Assembly (NCBI GenBank): GCA_003218975.1
Contig: QHPD01000108.1
Coordinates: forward strand, 1 to 44,124
DNA: 44,124 bases
Source of the DNA: Verrucomicrobiota bacterium
GTDB lineage: Bacteria; Verrucomicrobiota; Verrucomicrobiia; Chthoniobacterales; UBA10450
Direction: 5' to 3'
In this document: one piece after another, positions 3,067-38,750 of the stretch
How the letters are laid out: the number at the start of each line of letters is the position of its first letter
How positions within the stretch are numbered: position 1 is the stretch's first letter
Made by a program: the position numbers and the translations under genes
The notes under the pieces: generated by a model
What the model was told of the DNA's origin: nothing
The model's database searches: none
What the model saw: only the letters and a program-made list of their open reading frames with translations

Positions 3067-3152
3067 AGGTAGGGGCGATTGACTTCAATCGCCCAGACGG
3101 TTCGGGCCTGTCGCGCCGTAGCACAGCAAAGGCGGGTGAACCGCCCTTACCT
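3067..3152 (+). repeat. interspersed repeat R4, copy 1
   Basis: Begins AGGTAGGGGCGATTGACTTC and ends GGTGAACCGCCCTTACCT, so the two ends are roughly inverted; inner segments such as GGGCGATTGACTTCAATCGC are palindromic in themselves. A second copy in the opposite orientation lies at 3644-3694, and the two bracket the S74 remnant. Confidence 0.65.
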
Positions 3153-3164
3153 CTGGCGCACCTT

Positions 3165-3656
3165 TTACTGATTGTTCAGGACTGTTCGCGGCGCAGGCTT
3201 TTGCAGCTCTAGCTCTGCGCTCACCTTCTGGATTTGCGATCCCTGCTCTTTCACCGCTGTGGTGAGAACCTCCATTCCGGATTTTAGCTTTGCGATGGTC
3301 GCATCCTGTGCCTGAATCTTGCGATTTTGTTCCTGCACAGTGCGGTGCTCCTTCAGGAACTCGTTGAGCAACATCGCGTTTACCGCGTCGTACCGCACAG
3401 TGTAAACTTTCCCCTCGGCATCGCGGATCACTAGGGCGGGATTCACCTTTGCCACGTCTTCAGCGACGAAGCCAAACTGCGGCGCGCCATCGGGATCAAG
3501 CTCTTTCTTGTAATGGAACGTAACCGGTTTAAGCGCGAGGATCGCTCCGCTCACCTCGCCCATCAGCTTGATTTCGTCTTTGAAACGCGCCGAAGAAGTG
3601 GCCGTGCCGAGTCGGCCTTGGGCGTTTATGAAAACCGGCGTACCCAGGCGGTTCAC
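3165..3656 (-). pseudogene. peptidase-S74 (tail-fibre chaperone) C-terminal remnant
   Basis: The 163-residue frame is an isolated C-terminal intramolecular chaperone domain. SSARFKDEI at about 22-30 matches the family's SxxRxKxxI motif, whose Ser is the self-cleavage residue. FGFVAEDVAKVNPALV and YDAVNAMLLNEFLKEH are also family stretches. A predicted coiled coil and a short tail ending LNNQ complete it. Full-length members have a long N-terminal fibre or surface domain before this chaperone, and that part is missing. The only start, GTG 3656, lies inside repeat R4 copy 2, and the frame stays open back to a TAG at the edge of that repeat. It is most likely the stump of a larger secreted or surface protein cut at the repeat, although expression from the repeat cannot be excluded. 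Confidence 0.75.
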
Positions 3657-3694
3657 CGAACCGCCCTGGGCAATTGAGGTGAATCGCCCCTACC
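3644..3694 (-). repeat. interspersed repeat R4, copy 2
   Basis: Read on the minus strand it begins GGTAGGGGCGATTCACCTCA and contains GGTTCGGTGAACCGCC, itself a palindrome. It corresponds to copy 1 at 3067-3152 in inverted orientation and supplies the GTG from which the S74 remnant is read. Confidence 0.65.
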
Positions 3695-4483: not shown

Positions 4484-6538
4484 ATGTCCCGTCAATACAC
4501 GCTACAACGCGCGCCAGGATCGACATCAATTCACGTCGATTACGCCGCGGAGCTGAATGAGCAGCAACTCGCCGCCGTGACCGCGCCACCGGGCCCACTT
4601 CTGGTGATCGCCGGCGCGGGATCGGGTAAAACGCGCACGCTCACCTATCGCGTCGCATATTTGCTCGAGAACGGGATCGATTCGCGGAACATCCTGTTAC
4701 TAACATTCACAAACAAGGCCGCGCGCGAGATGCTCAACCGCGTCGCGAATTTGCTTCCGATGGACGCGAGCGGAATTTGGGGCGGAACGTTCCATTCGGT
4801 GGGCAATCGCATCCTGCGCCGGCACGGCAGCGCTCTGGGCTATTCGAGCGGGTTCACCATCATGGACCGGGAAGATCAAAAGGATTTGATCGACGTGGTG
4901 ATAGCCAGCGCGGGAATTGATCCGAAGGAAATCCGGTTCCCAAAAGGCGACGTGCTCGCCGAAATTTTCAGTTTTGTCGTCAACACAGAGAAGCCATTAG
5001 CAGAGTTGCTTGCGGAAAAGTTTCCCTATTTCCTGCCACTGCTCGAAAAAATCAAAGACGTCCATGATCGCTATGAAAAAAAGAAAAAAGCGACCAACTC
5101 CATGGATTTCGATGACCTGCTGGAAAAGACGTTGACGATGTTTCAGCGCCACGAGCGCATTGCTGAATTTTACCGGCGGCAATTTCAATTCATTCTCGTG
5201 GATGAATATCAGGACACGAACAAGATCCAGGCTGATTTGGTCGATCTTCTCGCTCGGGATCACCGGAATGTGATGGTCGTCGGCGATGATGCGCAATCGA
5301 TCTACTCGTGGCGCGGCGCGAACTTTCAAAACATTCTCGAATTTCCGAAACGCTATCCGGACGCACGGGTGTTTAAGATCGAGATGAATTACCGCAGCCT
5401 TCCGGAAATTCTGGAGGTCGCGAACGCGGCAATCGCGGCAAACGTTCAACAGTTCCACAAACACTTGAGCGCAACGCGCCAATCCAACGCTGTGAAGCCC
5501 GCCCTAGTCGCACTCAACGATGCGGGCGAGCAAGCGCAATTTATCGCTCAGCGTATTCTCGAGTTGCGCGATGAAGGCGTGGATCTTAGGGACATCGCCG
5601 TGCTCTATCGCGCGCACTATCACGCGATCGAACTGCAGTTGGAATTATCCCGCCGTGGGATTCCCTATCAAATCACCAGCGGAATTCGCTTCTTCGAGCA
5701 GGCCCACATCAAGGATGTCACTGCTTTCATTCGCTTCGTCGCCAATCCACGTGACGAAGTTGCATTCAAGCGGATGGTGAAACTGTTGCCCGGCATCGGC
5801 AATCGCACCGCAGATACTCTTTGGCGCGAGTGGGAAAATGCGCTGACCGCTGTAGTTGGCATCGGTGATCCCGGACGCCAAAATACGCGAGCATCAACCG
5901 GGGTCAGCCACCCCGGCTACAACTTTGGCGAACGCCTGACGGCTATGAGCGTTCCGGTGAAAGCGAAGAAAGCATGGCAGCAACTCGCGCATACGCTCGA
6001 CGAGATCGCGCCTGCTGGGGAACCAAATGCGCCATCAGAAATGATCATGTCGATCGTGGAAGCAATTTACGATGATTATGCGAAAGTGAATTTCGCAAAC
6101 TACGAATTGCGTCGCGAAGATTTGAATCAACTCGCGGTGTTCGCGCGCCAGTTCAAAGATGTTCACGAATTTCTCTCGCAACTGGCGCTGATCAGCAATG
6201 TCGATGCCGAAGCAGCGCCAAATCAAACGAGCGACAAAGAAGCGGTGAACCTTTCTACGGTGCACCAGGCGAAGGGTCTCGAGTTTCGCACTGTGTTCGT
6301 GATTTGGCTGACCGACGGAATGTTCCCGAGCAGCCGTTCCCTCGACACATGCGGGGCGCTCGAGGAAGAGCGGCGGCTTTTCTACGTCGCGACCACGCGC
6401 GCTCGCGACGAACTTTATCTGACCTACCCGCAGCTGCGCTTAAGCGGAGGCTACGGCGATGTGTTCCAACGGCCGTCGCGTTTTCTCCAAGAGATTCCCA
6501 GCGAACTCGTCGAGGACTGGCAGGTGCGAAGAAGCTAA
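4484..6538 (+). CDS. uvrD: UvrD/PcrA-type superfamily 1 DNA helicase
   Basis: This 684-residue ATP-driven 3'-5' DNA helicase belongs to the UvrD/Rep/PcrA group involved in repair and replication restart. It shows the Q motif (LNEQQLAAV, ~25-33), Walker A (GAGSGKT, 44-50), DEYQDTN (~238), VVGDDAQSIYSWRGA (~265), STVHQAKGLEF (~590) and ERRLFYVATTRARDELYL (~630). Length is near the family norm. Residues 456-480 do not look like family sequence: they are encoded by the R1 palindromic repeat at 5851-5921, placed in frame just after LLPGIGNRTADTLW in a region between conserved motifs. The gene seems monocistronic, with a 139-base upstream spacer. The symbol is by family resemblance only; PcrA or Rep would be equally fair names. 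Confidence 0.93.
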   Translation: MSRQYTLQRAPGSTSIHVDYAAELNEQQLAAVTAPPGPLLVIAGAGSGKTRTLTYRVAYLLENGIDSRNILLLTFTNKAAREMLNRVANLLPMDASGIWGGTFHSVGNRILRRHGSALGYSSGFTIMDREDQKDLIDVVIASAGIDPKEIRFPKGDVLAEIFSFVVNTEKPLAELLAEKFPYFLPLLEKIKDVHDRYEKKKKATNSMDFDDLLEKTLTMFQRHERIAEFYRRQFQFILVDEYQDTNKIQADLVDLLARDHRNVMVVGDDAQSIYSWRGANFQNILEFPKRYPDARVFKIEMNYRSLPEILEVANAAIAANVQQFHKHLSATRQSNAVKPALVALNDAGEQAQFIAQRILELRDEGVDLRDIAVLYRAHYHAIELQLELSRRGIPYQITSGIRFFEQAHIKDVTAFIRFVANPRDEVAFKRMVKLLPGIGNRTADTLWREWENALTAVVGIGDPGRQNTRASTGVSHPGYNFGERLTAMSVPVKAKKAWQQLAHTLDEIAPAGEPNAPSEMIMSIVEAIYDDYAKVNFANYELRREDLNQLAVFARQFKDVHEFLSQLALISNVDAEAAPNQTSDKEAVNLSTVHQAKGLEFRTVFVIWLTDGMFPSSRSLDTCGALEEERRLFYVATTRARDELYLTYPQLRLSGGYGDVFQRPSRFLQEIPSELVEDWQVRRS
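5851..5921 (+). repeat. palindromic repeat R1, copy A, in frame inside the helicase gene
   Basis: The imperfect inverted repeat starts TGTAGTTGGCATCGGTGATC and ends GTCAGCCACCCCGGCTACA; 17 of the outer 24 positions match between arms. It adds about 24 codons read VVGIGDPGRQ...TGVSHPGYN without a stop. Related copies lie at 32621-32672 (histidine kinase) and 38619-38694 (spacer). Confidence 0.8.
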
Positions 6539-6546
6539 TCCGGAGG

Positions 6547-6574
6547 CCACAGATAGACACAGATCCACACAGAT
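6547..6574 (+). repeat. repeat R2, left end of the GxxExxY unit
   Basis: Built from the tandem-like word CACAGAT (three CACAGAT-type blocks preceded by C). It lies six bases before the GxxExxY start codon and is matched in inverted orientation by 6975-7003. Confidence 0.8.
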
Positions 6575-6579
6575 AAATA

Positions 6580-6974
6580 ATGCTCGAAGTCGCATCTGAG
6601 AACGAAAAGCAGTTTCCGTACAAGGACATCACCGAGGCAATCATCGGGAGCGCCTTCGAAGTGTATCGACACCTGGGCTACGGATTTCTTGAGCGCGTCT
6701 ACCAAAGAGCTCTTCAAGTGGAACTGCTCCGTCGCAGCGTGAGGGCCGACTTGGAAAAGCGACTTACGGTACGATACAAGGACACTGTTGTAGGTGATTA
6801 CGATGCTGTCTGATTGTAAACGACTGCGTAATCATTGAAATCAAGGTGTCTCCTCAATACGACAAACGTGACGAAGCCCAAGTGCTTAACGAGCTGAAAG
6901 CGACCGGGATTAAGGTGGGAATGTTGATAAACTTCGGTCGCGCCAAAGTTGAGTATAAACGTCTGGTCTTCTGA
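6580..6974 (+). pseudogene. GxxExxY-family protein, frameshifted
   Basis: The first frame (ATG 6580) gives FPYKDITEAIIGSAFEVYRH and GYGFLERVYQRAL, which contain the family motif GxxxEVYxxLGxGFLExVY. It stops at TGA soon after VVGDYDAV. The rest of the family sequence follows in another frame: LIVNDCVIIEIKV, DEAQVLNELKATGIKVGMLI and YKRLVF, ending at TGA 6974. Inserting one base in GCTGTCTG near 6806 (restoring a GCT GAT CTG-type reading, D-A-D-L-I-V) joins them into one protein of about 130 residues. The fold is PD-(D/E)XK nuclease-like and the cellular role is unknown. The gene fills almost all the space between two inverted R2 repeats, which suggests it travels with them. Confidence 0.83.
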
Positions 6975-7003
6975 ATCTGTGTTTCATCCGTGTTCACCTG
7001 TGG
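6975..7003 (-). repeat. repeat R2, right end of the GxxExxY unit (inverted)
   Basis: Starts immediately after the GxxExxY stop codon with ATCTGTGTTTCATCCGTGTT and ends CACCTGTGG. Read on the minus strand it matches the left copy at 6547-6574 closely. The malQ start codon lies only eight bases beyond it, so the repeat occupies the malQ leader. Confidence 0.8.
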
Positions 7004-7010
7004 CTGAAGA

Positions 7011-8786
7011 ATGAATTTGTCTCCGGACAATCGGATCGCAGGCGTGCTTGTGCCGCTGTTTGCGCTACGCGGCGAGAACGATCTTGGGGTCGGCGATGTT
7101 TCTGCGCTGCGAGAGTTCATCGATTGGATCGCAGGGATTGGGTTCAAGCTGGTTCAGCTGCTGCCGATCAACGAGACCGGATCCGACAACAGTCCTTACA
7201 ACGCCATCAGCGCCATGGCGATTGAGCCGACCACGCTCTATTTGGGCCCAGACTCGCCTGAAGATTTAACGCGCCAAGACGTTGATTTTGCTCTTGGCGA
7301 GGTGGTCCCACCCGCCGCCAAGCGGGCCGATGCTTCGACTCCGCTCAGGACAAGCCTTTCCAAGCTGCGCCGCGGCGGAGTAAAGTATCGCCTCGTTAAA
7401 AAACTAAAGCGACGCCTGCTGGAAAAGGCATTCGCCAATTTTTCCGCTCGTGCCAACCAAGATCGACGGACTGCCTTTCGAAAATTTTGCGAAGAAGAAG
7501 CGGCGTGGTTGCACGATTACGTATTTTTCCGAGCACTGATGGAGCAGAACGGCGAGAGCCCGGCGTGGAACGGTTGGCCGGCACAACATCAATCAATCCA
7601 ACGAGCGAAGGCGTGGCTGCACGATCTGCCGCCAGACCGTCAGAAGACCATCATCGAGCGCCAATCTTTTTTTTCCTATGTACAGTGGACAGCGCATCAA
7701 CAATGGCGGGAGATGAAGTCATACGCCGAAGCACACGGCGTGGCGCTGATGGGTGATATTCCATTTGGCGTCAGTTATTATAGCGCAGACGTTTTTGCGC
7801 GGCCGGATGAATTCATGCTCGAGTGGTCGGGTGGCGCGCCGCCCGAACCGCATTTCAAGGACGACGCGTTCACGCAGAAATGGGGCCAGAACTGGGGCAT
7901 CCCCCTGTATCGCTGGGATCGAATGGGCGCGAACAACTTCGAGTCGTGGCGCCAACGCATCCGTGCGATCCGACGCATTTTTCATCTCTTTCGTATCGAT
8001 CATGTTCTGGGATTTTATCGCATCTACGCCTTCCCGTGGCGGCCGCGGAGGAATAAGCAGTTTCTCCCGCTCGATCAAGGCGAAATGCTGAAGCGAACCA
8101 GCGGCCGCGCTCCGCATTTTGTTCCCCGTGACGACCAAACGCCTGAAAACTGCGAAGCGAACAAAGGCGACGGCGAGAAATATCTGCGTGTTGTGTTGGA
8201 AGAAGCCGGCGCCACCCGGGTAATCGGTGAAGACCTTGGGATGGTGCCGGATTATGTGCGGCCAAGCCTGCGCTCACTCGGCATCGCCGGCTTTAAAATC
8301 CCGCAGTGGGAAACTTCAGATGGGGAAATCACGCCTGGAGATAAATACGAACGGCTCTCGGTCGCGACTTATGCCACTCACGATCACAAGCCACTTCGCG
8401 CTTTATGGGAAGAAGCTTTCGAGCGTGCAACGGCCACATCAGACCAGTCCAGATTCGAACTGGAAAAAATTGCCCGCTTCGCCGGTCTAGCCCCAAAGAT
8501 CGATCCGGCGCAGGAGGGATTGGCCGTGGCGAGCAAGTCCGATTTCGAAAAAGATTTCTATCCAGCGATAATGGAAGCGCTTTTCAGAAGTAATGCTTGG
8601 ATTGCCATCGTGATGATCACCGATCTACTGGCACGCAAATATCGCTTCAATGTTCCCGGCACAAAAACGCAATGGAATTGGACACGGAGGATGCAACGGA
8701 GCATTGCACAGCTGCGCGCGAGCCCGAACGTGCGAAGGCGAATGCGTTTGATTCATCAGCTGCTGGAGAAAACGGGACGGGTGTAA
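7011..8786 (+). CDS. malQ: 4-alpha-glucanotransferase (amylomaltase, GH77)
   Basis: The enzyme transfers alpha-1,4-glucan segments between maltodextrins in cytoplasmic glycogen/maltodextrin metabolism. GH77 signatures are present: GVLVPLFALRGENDLGVGDV near the N-terminus, LLPINETGSDNSPYNAISAMAIEP for acceptor binding, FRIDHVLGFYR with the nucleophile Asp, VIGEDLGMVPDYVR with the acid/base Glu, and YATHDHKP with the third Asp. All catalytic residues are intact. At 591 residues it is somewhat longer than small bacterial amylomaltases. Part of the excess is a stretch around residue 100 (PPAAKRADASTPLRTSL), which is encoded by an R3 repeat and lies between LGEV and the family-like VKYRLVKKLKRRLLEKAF. 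The start codon follows directly on repeat R2. Confidence 0.95.
   Translation: MNLSPDNRIAGVLVPLFALRGENDLGVGDVSALREFIDWIAGIGFKLVQLLPINETGSDNSPYNAISAMAIEPTTLYLGPDSPEDLTRQDVDFALGEVVPPAAKRADASTPLRTSLSKLRRGGVKYRLVKKLKRRLLEKAFANFSARANQDRRTAFRKFCEEEAAWLHDYVFFRALMEQNGESPAWNGWPAQHQSIQRAKAWLHDLPPDRQKTIIERQSFFSYVQWTAHQQWREMKSYAEAHGVALMGDIPFGVSYYSADVFARPDEFMLEWSGGAPPEPHFKDDAFTQKWGQNWGIPLYRWDRMGANNFESWRQRIRAIRRIFHLFRIDHVLGFYRIYAFPWRPRRNKQFLPLDQGEMLKRTSGRAPHFVPRDDQTPENCEANKGDGEKYLRVVLEEAGATRVIGEDLGMVPDYVRPSLRSLGIAGFKIPQWETSDGEITPGDKYERLSVATYATHDHKPLRALWEEAFERATATSDQSRFELEKIARFAGLAPKIDPAQEGLAVASKSDFEKDFYPAIMEALFRSNAWIAIVMITDLLARKYRFNVPGTKTQWNWTRRMQRSIAQLRASPNVRRRMRLIHQLLEKTGRV
7331..7355 (-). repeat. interspersed repeat R3, in frame inside malQ
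   Basis: On the minus strand it reads GCTTGTCCTGAGCGGAGTCG followed by AAGCA, matching the spacer copy at 879-900 (GCCTGCCCTGAGCGAAGTCG). Within malQ it encodes ASTPLRTS without a stop and lies in a segment that looks unlike GH77 sequence. Confidence 0.7.
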
Positions 8787-8801
8787 GCTTTGAATCGCAA
8801 T

Positions 8802-8881
8802 GCTCGATGCTGGGTTCTCAATGCTGGATTTTCCTCGCCGCGCTGTTCTGCCTATCGAGGATCAAGCATCCAGTATCGAGC
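8802..8881. repeat. inverted repeat between malQ and mdh
   Basis: The left arm GCTCGATGCTGG and the right arm CCAGTATCGAGC pair with one mismatch across an 80-base unit; inner words (AATGCTGGAT, ATCAAGCATCC) also pair in part. It could act as a terminator-like or processing hairpin after malQ, or be another interspersed repeat. No U-tract follows. Confidence 0.55.
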
Positions 8882-8915
8882 AGAAGCATGACTAAGAGTG
8901 AAAGCAGCATCAAAA

Positions 8916-8944
8916 ATCTGTGTGTTATCCGTGTTCATCCGTGG
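8916..8944 (-). repeat. repeat R2, solo copy before mdh
   Basis: ATCTGTGTGTTATCCGTGTT followed by CATCCGTGG matches the right-end repeat of the GxxExxY unit in the same orientation, but no GxxExxY gene is attached. It lies eleven bases upstream of the mdh start and must be part of its leader. Confidence 0.75.
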
Positions 8945-8955
8945 CTAATTGAACC

Positions 8956-9939
8956 ATGAAGTCGCCACTTAAAGTCGCGGTCACCGGCGCCGCCGGGCAG
9001 ATTGGTTACGCGCTGATTTTTCGTATCGCCTCAGGCGAGATGTTTGGACCGAGTCAACCGCTTATTCTTCATCTGATTGAGATCCCGAGTGTGCTCGGCG
9101 CGCTCGACGGTGTGGTGATGGAATTGCACGATTGCGCGTTTCCCTTGCTCCAATCGATTGTGCCAACAGCCGATCTGGATGAAGGATTCCGCGACATCAA
9201 TTGGGCGTTGCTCGTCGGCAGCGTCCCGCGCAAAGCCGGAATGGAGCGAAAAGATTTGCTCGGGATCAACGGCAAAATTTTCATCGGCCAAGGTCAGGCA
9301 ATCGAAAAAAACGCCGCGGCCGATGTGCGCGTGCTGGTAATCGGAAATCCCTGCAACACGAACTGTCTGATCGCGATGAACAACGCAAAAGAGATCCCGC
9401 GCGATCGCTGGTTTGCAATGACCCGGCTGGACGAGAACCGGGCACGGGCGCAACTTGCGCACAAAGCTGGCGTGGAAATCGCGCGCGTGACCAACATGAC
9501 GATCTGGGGAAACCATTCCTCCACGCAGTATCCAGATTTTTACAACGCGCGGATCGACAATCGACCGGCCAATGAAGTGATCGGCGACGAAAAATGGTTG
9601 AAAGAGGAATTCATCGCGACGGTGCAGCAACGTGGCGCCGCGGTAATTAAGGCACGGGGCCTTTCATCCGCCGGCTCCGCCGCGAATGCGATCGTTGATA
9701 CAGTGCGTTCGCTTGCGAACGACACGCCGGGTGACGATTGGCACAGCGTGGCAGTTTGTTCGGATGGAAGTTACGACGTGGAGGAAGGATTGATCTCATC
9801 GTTCCCGGTTCGCGTGCGCAGCAGCAAATGGGAGATCGTGCAACAACTTCCGATCAACGAATTCAGCCGCGAAAAGATCGACAAGTCGATTTCTGAACTG
9901 AAGGAAGAGAAATCACTCGTGAGCGAGTTACTCGGATAG
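8956..9939 (+). CDS. mdh: malate dehydrogenase
   Basis: This NAD-dependent enzyme interconverts malate and oxaloacetate in the TCA cycle. The 327-residue protein begins with the dinucleotide-binding loop [20 protein letters not shown]. It carries the substrate-binding [13 protein letters not shown] and the catalytic His in [12 protein letters not shown]. This is the cytosolic-type, approximately 327-residue group also found in actinobacteria and plants, distinct from the lactate-dehydrogenase-like group. Start ATG 8956 follows R2. It converges on the S9 peptidase gene, with only 47 bases between the two stops, and repeat R5 lies in that gap. Confidence 0.96.
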
Positions 9940-9963
9940 AGACGGATCACCAAGCCGTCGGTT

Positions 9964-9990
9964 GCGACGCGCCCGGCGGTCCCGCCCTAC
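9964..9990 (-). repeat. interspersed repeat R5, copy 1, at the S9 peptidase stop
   Basis: Minus strand GTAGGGCGGGACCGCCGGGC followed by GCGTCGC, with the core palindrome GGCGGGACCGCC shifted around its centre. It agrees with the copy at 22807-22833 at 25 of 27 positions. Its first bases contain the TAG that ends the S9 peptidase gene. Confidence 0.8.
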
Positions 9991-11975
9991 CTTAGTTCCG
10001 CAGTTGAGCCGGTGATCTTCTTCCATGGTTCCGCGCGACCACCGAGATGTTTGGCAAGGAACTCTTCAACGCGGCCGTAGAAATCGAGTTGATTTTCCGG
10101 ACGAGCGAAACCATGCCCTTCGTCCGGATAGACCACGTAGGTCACTTCACGTTTTGCTTTGCGCAACGCACCAACCATCGCGTCAGCATTAGCCATTGTG
10201 ACTCGAGGATCGTTCTTGCCCTGACCGATGAGAAGCGGCGCGCGGATCGCATCGACATGATAAAGCGGCGAGATTTTTCGGTTCCAGTTCTCGTCGTGAT
10301 CGGCATCTCCTGCGCGCCGTCGCCAGCGCTCCAATATGTTCGACCAGTATTTGGGAGAGGAACGAAAGCTCACGGCTTCGTCGGCTGGCCCACATTCATC
10401 AACGCCACACGCAAAGAGATCAGGCCGCATTTCCAGCGAGCGCAAGGTCGCAAAACCTCCCATCGACCCGCCCATCGCCGCGATTCGTTTTGGATCAGCG
10501 ATCCCTTGATCCACGGCCCAACGCACTGCATCGAAAAGGTCTTCCACCATCCCAAGCCCAACCGCAAGGTTGCCAGCATTGAAGAACTTGATGCCGAAAC
10601 CGGTCGAGCCGCGATAGTTCACTTGCAGGACCGCATAGCCGCGGTTGGCGAGAAACTGCACTTCGGGGTCGTAGTTGTCAGAATCCCGGTCCCAGGGGCC
10701 ACCATGGATGAGAAGAACTAGAGGAAGCTTCTTCGGCTCCACTTTTGGCGGAATCGCTAGGTAACTGACCATTTCCAGTCCGTCACGCGTTTTGATGATC
10801 ACCGGTTTCTTCGGCGCGAGAGCGAATTTGGCCAAAGCAGGATTCTCGGTGAAGAGCTGGTTCAGTTTTTTCTTGTCGCGGTCAAACTTGTAATACGTGG
10901 CTGGCGCGTCGCTGCGGCGCGACGCTACGATCCAGACATGATCGGCGTTGTCGCGACTAACGAGATCGATAAAGCCCGGCACTTCGCGGCTGATCATCTC
11001 GAAATCCACTTTCAATTTTGGATCGAGGAAAGACCAGTGCGGCGTGGTGTAATCGAACTCGACCGCTTGCGGCGCATCGGTGACGGGATGCAAAATCACG
11101 CTCGCCTCCATTCCCAGGCGGCCAACATCGACAAATGCCACGTCGCAGCGCGGATCTTCGGCGATGACTTCGAGCTCGTGACCATCCTGCAAATCGACCC
11201 GCACCAATCTGCCCTTGTCCGAATGCAGCGCAGAATCGATCAACAGGCTTTTGCCATCGGGATCAAAACCGGCAATGAGCGAGCCGTTCACGACCTGTCC
11301 GGCAAAGAGTGCCCGCTCAAAAGGCATCACCACAAGGTCACGCCACGGTTTGTCGGCCGCATCGCGCACGCGGATAATCGTCCGGCCAGTTTTCCCCTCG
11401 AAAGCTGTGGCGGCGCGAATGACAAAATTGTTATCGGCCTTCCACGTAAGCACGTCGCCGGGATTGGTAGCTTCGAGAGTGATGGCGCCCGTTTGGAGAT
11501 CCACCCGATACATGTCAAATGCGTTCCGGTCGCGCAAGTTGAGTGCAACCAGGACGGATTCTGGATGTCGCGAATCAGTCAGGACGTTTTGCGCGCGCAC
11601 ACCGCGAAACGGCGTGAGATCGCGCACGTTGCCGCTCCTTAGGTCAGCCGAGAAAAGGTGCGGAATCTCGTCGCCAGCATTGTCGTGGAGATAAAGGATG
11701 TGTTTCCCATCTGCGGCCCACGTGTACCATTCAATCGGATCGCCTGTTTCGTTAGTCAGGCAATGGGCGTTTCCGCCGTCGAGCGCGCTCGTCCAAACAT
11801 TCAGCGTATTGTTTTTGTCCGGCGCCAGCCAGCTCAGTTGGGAACCGTCCGGCGACACTTTCGGATCCGTCCGCGCCTGATTGCCGAATAAGATTTCCCG
11901 CGGGATAAGTGGCGGCAATTCCGCGCGGACCCAGCAAGCAGCGAGAAGGAGTGCGACGACAGAAAGCCTTTTCAC
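9987..11975 (-). CDS. secreted S9-family prolyl oligopeptidase / acylaminoacyl peptidase
   Basis: The 662-residue protein has a signal peptide (MKRLSVVALLLAACWVRA), a beta-propeller-like N-terminal half starting PKVSPDGSQLSWLAPD, and a C-terminal alpha/beta-hydrolase domain from about 400. The catalytic Ser is in GGSMGGFATLR, the Asp in GQGKNDPRV and the His in YPDEGHGFARPEN; LLIHGGPWDRD forms the oxyanion region. It should cleave peptides in the periplasm. The gene starts 15 bases after purC on the same strand and is probably cotranscribed with it, although no functional link is obvious. The TAG stop codon belongs to repeat R5, so the original C-terminus may have been altered. Confidence 0.92.
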   Translation of the reverse strand: MKRLSVVALLLAACWVRAELPPLIPREILFGNQARTDPKVSPDGSQLSWLAPDKNNTLNVWTSALDGGNAHCLTNETGDPIEWYTWAADGKHILYLHDNAGDEIPHLFSADLRSGNVRDLTPFRGVRAQNVLTDSRHPESVLVALNLRDRNAFDMYRVDLQTGAITLEATNPGDVLTWKADNNFVIRAATAFEGKTGRTIIRVRDAADKPWRDLVVMPFERALFAGQVVNGSLIAGFDPDGKSLLIDSALHSDKGRLVRVDLQDGHELEVIAEDPRCDVAFVDVGRLGMEASVILHPVTDAPQAVEFDYTTPHWSFLDPKLKVDFEMISREVPGFIDLVSRDNADHVWIVASRRSDAPATYYKFDRDKKKLNQLFTENPALAKFALAPKKPVIIKTRDGLEMVSYLAIPPKVEPKKLPLVLLIHGGPWDRDSDNYDPEVQFLANRGYAVLQVNYRGSTGFGIKFFNAGNLAVGLGMVEDLFDAVRWAVDQGIADPKRIAAMGGSMGGFATLRSLEMRPDLFACGVDECGPADEAVSFRSSPKYWSNILERWRRRAGDADHDENWNRKISPLYHVDAIRAPLLIGQGKNDPRVTMANADAMVGALRKAKREVTYVVYPDEGHGFARPENQLDFYGRVEEFLAKHLGGRAEPWKKITGSTAELR

Positions 11976-22803: not shown

Positions 22804-23682
22804 ATGGTAGGGCGCGACCGCCGGGCGCGCCGCAGACGCGCCACCTCAAAGAAAGACATCCAACAGGGAGTTCAAACACCTCCCGTCGCGCTGACGATCG
22901 CCGGCTCTGACTGCAGCGCTGGCGCCGGTATTCAGGCCGATCTCAAGACCTTTTCTGCGCTTGGCGTTTACGGATTAACCACACTTACCTGCGTAGTGGC
23001 GGAAATCCCGGGAAAAGTTTCATGTATCGAACCGGTCAGCAGCGATCTTGTGCGCGAACAGATCGCTATCCTTTCCAAAAATTTCCCGATCGGTGCTGCA
23101 AAGATGGGATTGCTCTGCACGGCTGAGATCGTTGAAGCCGTTGCACGCGCCCTTCTCGATCTTTCAGCCGATTCAGCAAAACGTTTTCCTCTCGTTGTCG
23201 ATCCGGTCATAATAGCCACCAGTGGCGATCGGCTTCTCGAACCGGCAGCGGTCGAAGCGTATGAAAACGAAATTTTTCCGCTCGCGGCTCTCATCACGCC
23301 GAACCTGAATGAGGCAGCTTTGTTACTCGGAACAAAAATCAAAGGTCGACAATCAATGAAGAAAGCTGCTACAGCCCTCGCGAACAAGTATCGCGTGCCG
23401 ATCTTGCTGAAAGGCGGACATCTCCAGGGAGTTAACGCGACTGATCTACTTTTCCATCGCGGGAAACTGACAGAGCTCTCAGCGCCGTTTGTGCGCGCCG
23501 TCGCCACGCATGGCACCGGTTGCACATATTCGGCCGCCATTACTGCGGGTCTTGCAGCAGGTTTATCGCTGGAAAACGCCATTCGGCGAGCGAAGAAATT
23601 TGTGACCGGAGCTATCGCGCAGCGTTTCCGGTGGACTTCCGCCTCGGGCAAAACTCTCGAGGCTCTCAAGCATTCGCTCTAG
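22804..23682 (+). CDS. thiD: hydroxymethylpyrimidine / phosphomethylpyrimidine kinase
   Basis: The enzyme phosphorylates HMP and HMP-P in thiamine synthesis. From about residue 26 it is a standard ThiD: VALTIAGSDCSAGAGIQADLKTFSALGVYG, VVDPVIIATSGDRLLEPAA, ITPNLNEAALLLG, ILLKGGHLQG, and the catalytic GTGCTYSAAITAGLA. The first ~12 codons (MVGRDRRARRRR) come from repeat R5 at 22807-22833, and no other ATG, GTG or TTG lies in frame before the conserved core. So either the repeat-derived extension is translated or a rarer start such as CTG is used. It is coupled to the ferredoxin by abutting codons. No TPP riboswitch is possible in this gap. Confidence 0.93.
   Translation: MVGRDRRARRRRATSKKDIQQGVQTPPVALTIAGSDCSAGAGIQADLKTFSALGVYGLTTLTCVVAEIPGKVSCIEPVSSDLVREQIAILSKNFPIGAAKMGLLCTAEIVEAVARALLDLSADSAKRFPLVVDPVIIATSGDRLLEPAAVEAYENEIFPLAALITPNLNEAALLLGTKIKGRQSMKKAATALANKYRVPILLKGGHLQGVNATDLLFHRGKLTELSAPFVRAVATHGTGCTYSAAITAGLAAGLSLENAIRRAKKFVTGAIAQRFRWTSASGKTLEALKHSL
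22807..22833 (+). repeat. interspersed repeat R5, copy 2, at the thiD start
   Basis: GTAGGGCGCGACCGCCGGGC followed by GCGCCGC, matching copy 1 (9964-9990, minus strand) at 25 of 27 positions. It begins one codon after the ferredoxin stop and encodes the arginine-rich start of ThiD. Confidence 0.8.
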
Positions 23683-38726: not shown

Positions 38727-38750
38727 GTAGGACACGACCGCCGGGCTCGC
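38727..38750 (+). repeat. interspersed repeat R5, copy 3
   Basis: GTAGGACACGACCGCCGGGC followed by TCGC matches copies 1 and 2 with a few changes. It stands 33 bases after R1 copy C and about 30 bases beyond the 3' end of the large secreted protein gene. Confidence 0.65.

Follow-up and report, generated by a model that had tools for sequence, protein, structure and literature searches.

GxxExxY nuclease genes between inverted iteron ends: apparently a widespread and so far undescribed kind of tiny mobile element, with a decayed copy in a Verrucomicrobiota genome

The window (the whole analysed stretch of 44,124 nucleotides, contig QHPD01000108.1 of a Verrucomicrobiota bacterium) carries on its plus strand a UvrD-like helicase gene (4484..6538), a gene of the GxxExxY family (6580..6974), and a 4-alpha-glucanotransferase (malQ-like) gene (7011..8786). 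The helicase stop codon (6536-6538) lies 7 nt before a 5' inverted arm of three CACAGAT units with a 10-nt period (6546..6574, plus strand), which ends 5 nt before the ATG at 6580 of the GxxExxY gene. Directly after the TGA of this gene (6972-6974) follows the 3' arm (6975..7004), with the minus-strand units CACAGGT, CACGGAT, and CACAGAT, and 6 nt after it the malQ-like gene starts with the ATG at 7011. An earlier note on this DNA had described a GxxExxY gene bracketed by inverted repeats and a third copy alone before mdh; both arms are present, and so is the solo arm (8916..8945, minus strand), which is about 90% like the 3' arm (88% over 32 nt), ends 10 nt before the mdh start at 8956, and has no inverted partner within the window.

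The description of the gene between the arms as PD-(D/E)XK-like holds for its family (TIGR04256/PF13366; PD-(D/E)XK fold) but not for an intact gene, the reading frame being broken near 6812-6818. The two halves are matched in different frames by TIGR04256 (E 3.6e-15 and 4.2e-15; 56 bits each, cut-off 35) and both also by PF13366 (60 and 48 bits, cut-off 22), and the open-reading-frame list contains no frame that spans the gene. The copy is broken, being either a pseudogene or a MAG sequencing error, and because of this frameshift the window element is regarded as a decayed copy. Profile searches with its gene gave no match to a Y1 HUH transposase and no four-helix-bundle identity, the matches being TIGR04256 and PF13366 only; Rfam gave no match at 6400-9100, and the copy is located between uvrD and malQ, not in 23S rRNA.

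Other repeats were also observed in the window. A coding stretch of about 32 bases inside the malQ-like gene (about 7326-7361) is also found elsewhere in several genomes from the genus and resembles a dispersed repeat taken into the gene. Inverted repeats of 29 nt at 3068-3096 and 3666-3694, 90% complementary and 569 nt apart, enclose a minus-strand ORF (3165-3656) with a Peptidase_S74 match (E 6.9e-10), and GGTAGGGCGCGACCGCCGGGCGCG repeats resembling GTAG-tagged REPs occur in both orientations at 9963-9991, 22806-22834, and 38727-38750.

The GxxExxY protein models as a single-domain RecB/Cas4-like PD-(D/E)XK nuclease. Its residues D73, E83, K85, Q97, and Y101 are invariant in 57 sequences, and both the core fold of RecB/Cas4-type PD-(D/E)XK nucleases and their motif, named D-ExK-QxxxY, are present. 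The predicted structure (pLDDT 92.5) has as its closest PDB structures SSO0001 (E 2.7e-4), lambda exonuclease, and MGME1, with low TM-scores of 0.4-0.5 and only 4 matches at E of 0.001 or less; a PDB search by sequence returned nothing reliable, and the Cas4 matches from PADLOC were weak (E 0.0025-0.006). Cas4 proper has conserved cysteines and an iron-sulphur cluster, and no invariant or near-invariant cysteine is found in the family alignment (A2). For the gene at the window site the median dN/dS is 0.07, obtained from 13 of 21 pairs (dS being saturated in the rest) among seven sequences, one of them with a shifted C-terminus, which indicates that the protein was kept there by purifying selection; the window's own copy has been broken since this period.

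The bracketing extends to the family as a whole. For each gene the downstream stretch was reverse-complemented and aligned with the upstream one, and with a score threshold of at least 28 the inverted arms were found around 142 of 155 distinct GxxExxY genes (67/73, 56/62, and 19/20 in the subsets), detectable arms being absent around the other 13. The total combines the genus and relative set, the protein-similarity set, and further copies from 12 of those genomes, with duplicates removed. In the own genome and its relatives, 67 of 73 distinct full-length genes were bracketed, compared with 3/73 random places at the same loci, 29/146 mispaired flanks, and 18/73 for direct orientation. The genomes picked by protein similarity alone supplied 80 loci, reduced to 65 after exclusion of 3 repeats of genus loci and 12 loci with short flanks, and here 59 of 65 genes were bracketed versus 17/130 random places; the mispaired-flank control was high in this broad set (72/130), because its genes share one iteron type, and this is counted as a finding and not as a failed control. 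These genomes represent many bacterial phyla and methane-related archaea, among them Verrucomicrobiota, Planctomycetota, Acidobacteriota, Bacteroidota, Chloroflexota, Pseudomonadota, Calditrichota, Methanosarcinaceae, Methanoperedens, and others. The earlier note would have abandoned its idea had such repeats been equally common beside unrelated genes, and the UPF0102 genes, which we take to have the same fold and a similar size, were bracketed in only 1 of 26 cases. The controls (random places, mispaired flanks, direct orientation, and UPF0102 genes) ruled out chance as well as a coincidence confined to CACAGAT.

The expectation that CACAGAT-type repeats flank GxxExxY genes was correct for the bracketing and too narrow for the sequence, since many unit types exist: CACAGAT, CACGAAG, ACAGRAT, CGCAGAG, and CAGGAAA differ from gene to gene. 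An arm is usually built from about three units of 8-10 nt each, the best self-match lag being 8-10 in 232 of 274 arms and exactly 9 in 138 of them. Carrier genomes in the genus contain 1-12 matches each; plasmid matches to GxxExxY were found in 8 records, and phage records gave none. The literature searched, which did not extend to subscription papers or preprints, contained no description of GxxExxY genes between such repeats, and the repeat-bracketed nuclease gene is apparently a widespread and tiny kind of mobile element that is so far undescribed.

The iteron sequence was compared with the protein in 9,277 gene pairs without flank homology, where protein identity and iteron similarity correlated with rho 0.368 (the best of 300 permutations reached 0.102), and between the genus/order set and other taxa rho was 0.226 over 4,686 pairs (best permutation 0.102). 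Iterons were shared by 2% of pairs at 25-45% amino-acid identity, 53% at 55-65%, and 88% above 80%. Whether bacterial or archaeal, nearly all genes found via one subfamily have GACAGRATNNACAGRATNNACAGRAT-type ends, and other copies in Prevotella genomes have AACGGAA, CACAGAAAT, and CGCAGAG types. The genes of L005 and L045 are 87% identical and have the same iterons between flanks without homology, and other gene pairs of 85-89% identity with the same ends likewise lie at unrelated places. In the compared sequences the iterons go with the protein subfamily across phyla and domains, even where the flanks are unrelated.

In the own genome (3.06 Mb) the solo arms were counted by pattern for CACRGAT only, and the three-unit pattern with at most 3 mismatches gave 13 matches and its reversed-pattern control 0, so the CACAGAT arms are not due to chance. 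An inverted partner within 75 nt (score 27-37) was present for 6 of the 13 (L011, L015, L013, L014, L017, and L019), and as L011 and L015 are two arms of one hairpin, this corresponds to 5 gene-less hairpins; the control for the partner score reached 29 once, and L014 (27) and L019 (29) are read from the sequence itself and from the folds. The RNA folding of gene-less hairpins is strong, with z from -4.0 to -7.1 in 4 of 5 stretches. The same genome has 8 PF13366 genes, 6 of them stop-free, and 5 of these 6 are bracketed by arms with a different unit each (CGCAGAG, ACAGAAT, CGCAGAT, CGCGGAT, and CACGAAT types), the sixth (C53, CACGAAG) scoring 26, just under the threshold.

Comparison of sites between relatives supports the minimal unit that the earlier note had proposed, a nuclease-fold gene that occupies the space between inverted ends and leaves gene-less traces, the nuclease itself being the putative mover. 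At the window site 30 loci of the genus were compared, and among the 28 with both flanks a gene-bearing element was found in 12. A gene-less derivative exists at this very site in L125, where the gene has been deleted down to its first codons and its last codon while both arms are retained (the stretch used for its folding lacked the 5' arm, which makes that fold uninformative). The remaining loci have TGACGAA-type hairpins (8), GTCATTCCGAGC-type hairpins (4), both kinds (2), or are nearly bare (1). The site is occupied through species at 66-80% flank identity, and for this reason transposition is considered slow and vertical descent common. In the 12 orthologues the 5' and 3' units switch independently between CACAGAT and CACGGAT, and no compensatory base-pair signal between the two arms is read from them (in L115 the pattern search chose the wrong 3' arm). 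A second hairpin family (GTCATTCCGAGCGAAGC...GTCGAGGAATCTC) was observed filling the uvrD-malQ gap in other species (L131, L134, L135, and L139).

At a second site of the genus, where 15 of 30 loci have both flanks, these loci contain the following: GxxExxY elements with GACACGAAT ends (3) or CCGCGAAT ends (1), four-helix-bundle elements (4; the profile was run on one and the rest were assigned by eye), gene-less units with GACAC-type ends (2), other hairpins (2), no element (2), and in L177 a RAYT gene (REP-associated tyrosine transposase, NF047646). The L177 site, filled in other species by GxxExxY or S23 elements, has the appearance of a shared landing site.

At a junction in Prevotella, 22 of 30 loci have both neighbours, and 6 of these bear the gene (one broken), 5 have a short hairpin or a single arm, and 11 are empty, three of the empty ones having an ATGA in which stop and start codon overlap. 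Thus empty sites, which the earlier note had proposed to look for, were found in 11/22 loci here and in 2/15 at the second site of the window's genus. In G049 and G238, with flanks 95-96% identical, the gene is present in one and a short remnant keeping both tips in the other; at another Prevotella site of these two genomes, one carries GxxExxY where the other has a DUF559 gene accompanied by CCCTCCCCTAACCCC-type inverted repeats. The DUF559 replacement (L349, G238:C16 about 71781-72313, versus L343 1887-2640) was seen to alter the last residues of the upstream protein. Of 8 DUF559 loci, 3 were tested and each had inverted repeats, though built differently from those of GxxExxY; DUF559 genes are not counted as a further member. 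At one and the same gene junction, relatives carry the whole unit, a gene-less form of it, or nothing.

These observations bear on the view that nothing here is mobile and that a host operon gene, for example a DNA-repair or defence nuclease, is punctuated by hairpins, its arms regulating translation or RNA processing. The sense orientation beside stop and start codons, the strong purifying selection, and the strong RNA folds of gene-less hairpins (z -4.0 to -7.1 in 4/5 stretches) are what such a gene might present, but presence, absence, and replacement at orthologous junctions, genes of 85-89% identity at unrelated places, the 1-12 matches in each carrier genome of the genus, and the wide distribution with archaea included make this view very improbable.

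Target-site duplications, for which the earlier note had likewise proposed to look, did not appear: in 101 elements the identical flanking 5-9-mers were no commoner than in shuffled pairing, a count in which old insertions could have lost them. This gives no indication of an ordinary cut-and-paste transposase and argues against a DDE-type step. Short flank matches were slightly above the shuffled maximum (k=2, 19 vs 17; k=4, 6 vs 4), and were not counted as target duplication, because the offsets concerned fall within the arms, whose tips are expected to be palindromic.

The missing duplication, the exactly placed stop/start gaps that are empty in relatives, and the long occupation of one junction under purifying selection would also be compatible with a homing-type process, in which the nuclease cuts insert-free alleles, repair from the filled allele spreads the element at one junction, and the inverted ends serve to protect, regulate, or terminate it. 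Closely related genes are found, however, at junctions unrelated to each other, the specificity of the protein correlates with the ends of the element and not with its target, and one site can harbour different element types, so that homing is regarded as improbable, if less so than a fixed host gene.

Position and orientation were counted for the 101 elements whose ends are clear. In 88/100 cases the gene upstream runs in the same direction as the element, compared with 57/80 for generic adjacent gene pairs, and the stop codon of this upstream gene is at most 12 nt from the arm in 57/100 (5/354 at random points; 1/21 for UPF0102). Among 48 independent sites, those with neighbours sharing a direction have the element in sense in 33 and in antisense in 2. 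The S23 elements behave in the same manner, with 21/22 co-directional, 20/22 with a stop at most 12 nt away, and 16 sense versus 0 antisense. Such a bias may result equally from transcript-linked insertion or from selection favouring read-through expression, and it may reflect expression selection because the baseline co-directionality is already 57/80.

The S23 (TIGR02436; four-helix-bundle, IVP) genes of relatives, which belong to a kind known from rRNA intervening sequences (IVS), are the most serious complication, inverted repeats being found around 28 of 30 loci (L404-L433). Units of about 7-8 nt, for example GTTGAGAGTTGAGAG, AGGTCAGAGGTCAGA, and TGACGAA, were observed at chromosomal S23 genes (also L175, L178, L186, and L190), and these genes are IVS-like elements outside rRNA. 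The doubt about the nuclease as mover arises mainly because S23 genes share the architecture, and the likeness may mean either that two proteins use a single strategy of end recognition or that recognition or movement depends on a helper which both share. A related explanation is that the iteron hairpins themselves are the mobile part (REP/IVS-like), spread in trans by another enzyme, for example a RAYT, a reverse transcriptase, or replication slippage, with GxxExxY and S23 proteins as passengers or iteron-binding partners only. The same architecture without a nuclease fold in 28/30 S23 loci, the occurrence of S23, RAYT, and GxxExxY elements at one site in different species, the existence of gene-less hairpins, and the lack of target duplication agree with it. 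Nevertheless, a general trans-acting enzyme would not predict that iterons track the GxxExxY subfamily across phyla and domains, and a mere passenger does not fit a protein under purifying selection with a complete active site; we therefore rate the spread of hairpins in trans as unlikely, yet the strongest competitor.

The explanation that we prefer, and hold to be rather probable, is that the window contains, in decayed form, a minimal mobile element about 450-600 bp long, consisting of one GxxExxY nuclease gene between inverted ends of about three iterons each, the nuclease recognising its own repeats. According to this model the nuclease would bind its own iterons on both ends, where the 8-10-bp period means recurrence about once per helical turn, would bring the two ends together, and would nick or cut there. 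In this way it would initiate copying or excision, and host replication and repair might then complete the process, copying or moving the element into operon stop/start gaps without target duplication; the element would be expressed through read-through out of the neighbouring gene. The gene-less hairpins and the solo arms would have arisen by internal deletion or be remnants, perhaps still recognised by the enzyme. That the GxxExxY nuclease is itself the mover is what we infer.

A broader hypothesis, which is attractive but held only tentatively and at somewhat less than even chances, unites the GxxExxY and chromosomal S23 elements as one unrecognised class of transcript-embedded mobile elements, of which the rRNA IVS would be the only known branch. 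Such elements would spread in sense into operon stop/start gaps via iteron hairpins (as DNA, single-stranded DNA, or RNA), with no classical transposase or target duplication, and in the GxxExxY branch a Cas4/RecB-like nuclease would be the mobiliser, its specificity having diversified together with its own ends across bacteria and archaea.

Several consequences follow for further research. A testable role can be proposed for the GxxExxY family, so far known only as of unknown function, and likewise an origin for the common intergenic repeats of CACAGAT, CACGAAG, ACAGGAT, and CGCAGAG types. The naturally matched pairs of nuclease and iteron are material for the study of how a small PD-(D/E)XK protein reads DNA, and for the long-open question of the origin of rRNA IVS more relatives become available outside rRNA, together with sites in the filled, short, and empty state.

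Among the known systems, RAYT/REP is similar in having one nuclease-type gene between inverted repeats and dispersed gene-less copies in intergenic gaps, but uses an HUH/Y1 enzyme (PF01797) and single palindromes, while the GxxExxY elements have a PD-(D/E)XK protein and multi-unit iterons. Classical IS and MITEs share the terminal inverted repeats and internally deleted derivatives; unlike classical IS, the GxxExxY elements have no DDE transposase and no target duplication was found, and their ends are direct iterons with a sequence varying by subfamily. With Cas4/RecB-like nucleases (SSO0001, lambda exonuclease, and MGME1) the GxxExxY protein has the fold and the D-ExK-QxxxY motif in common, although it is shorter, without invariant cysteines, and encoded alone between inverted repeats.

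A further likeness is to the IVS with an S23p ORF of Coxiella and Leptospira (PMC4990558). The 428-nt IVS of Coxiella 23S, described there as selfish, has an S23p ORF, inverted repeats, and three tandem heptamers GACAGAT before the ORF (PMC4990558). Such IVS share with GxxExxY elements the size of about 430 nt, the single small ORF, the inverted ends, the short tandem repeats, and the sense placement in a host transcript (PMC4990558). The IVS protein is, in contrast, a four-helix bundle and not a nuclease, whereas GxxExxY is PD-(D/E)XK, and the IVS lies in 23S rRNA and is removed from the RNA by RNase III, whereas the GxxExxY elements lie in mRNA operons (PMC4990558 for the IVS). By this analogy, the GxxExxY elements look like the IVS architecture equipped with a nuclease gene and placed outside rRNA.
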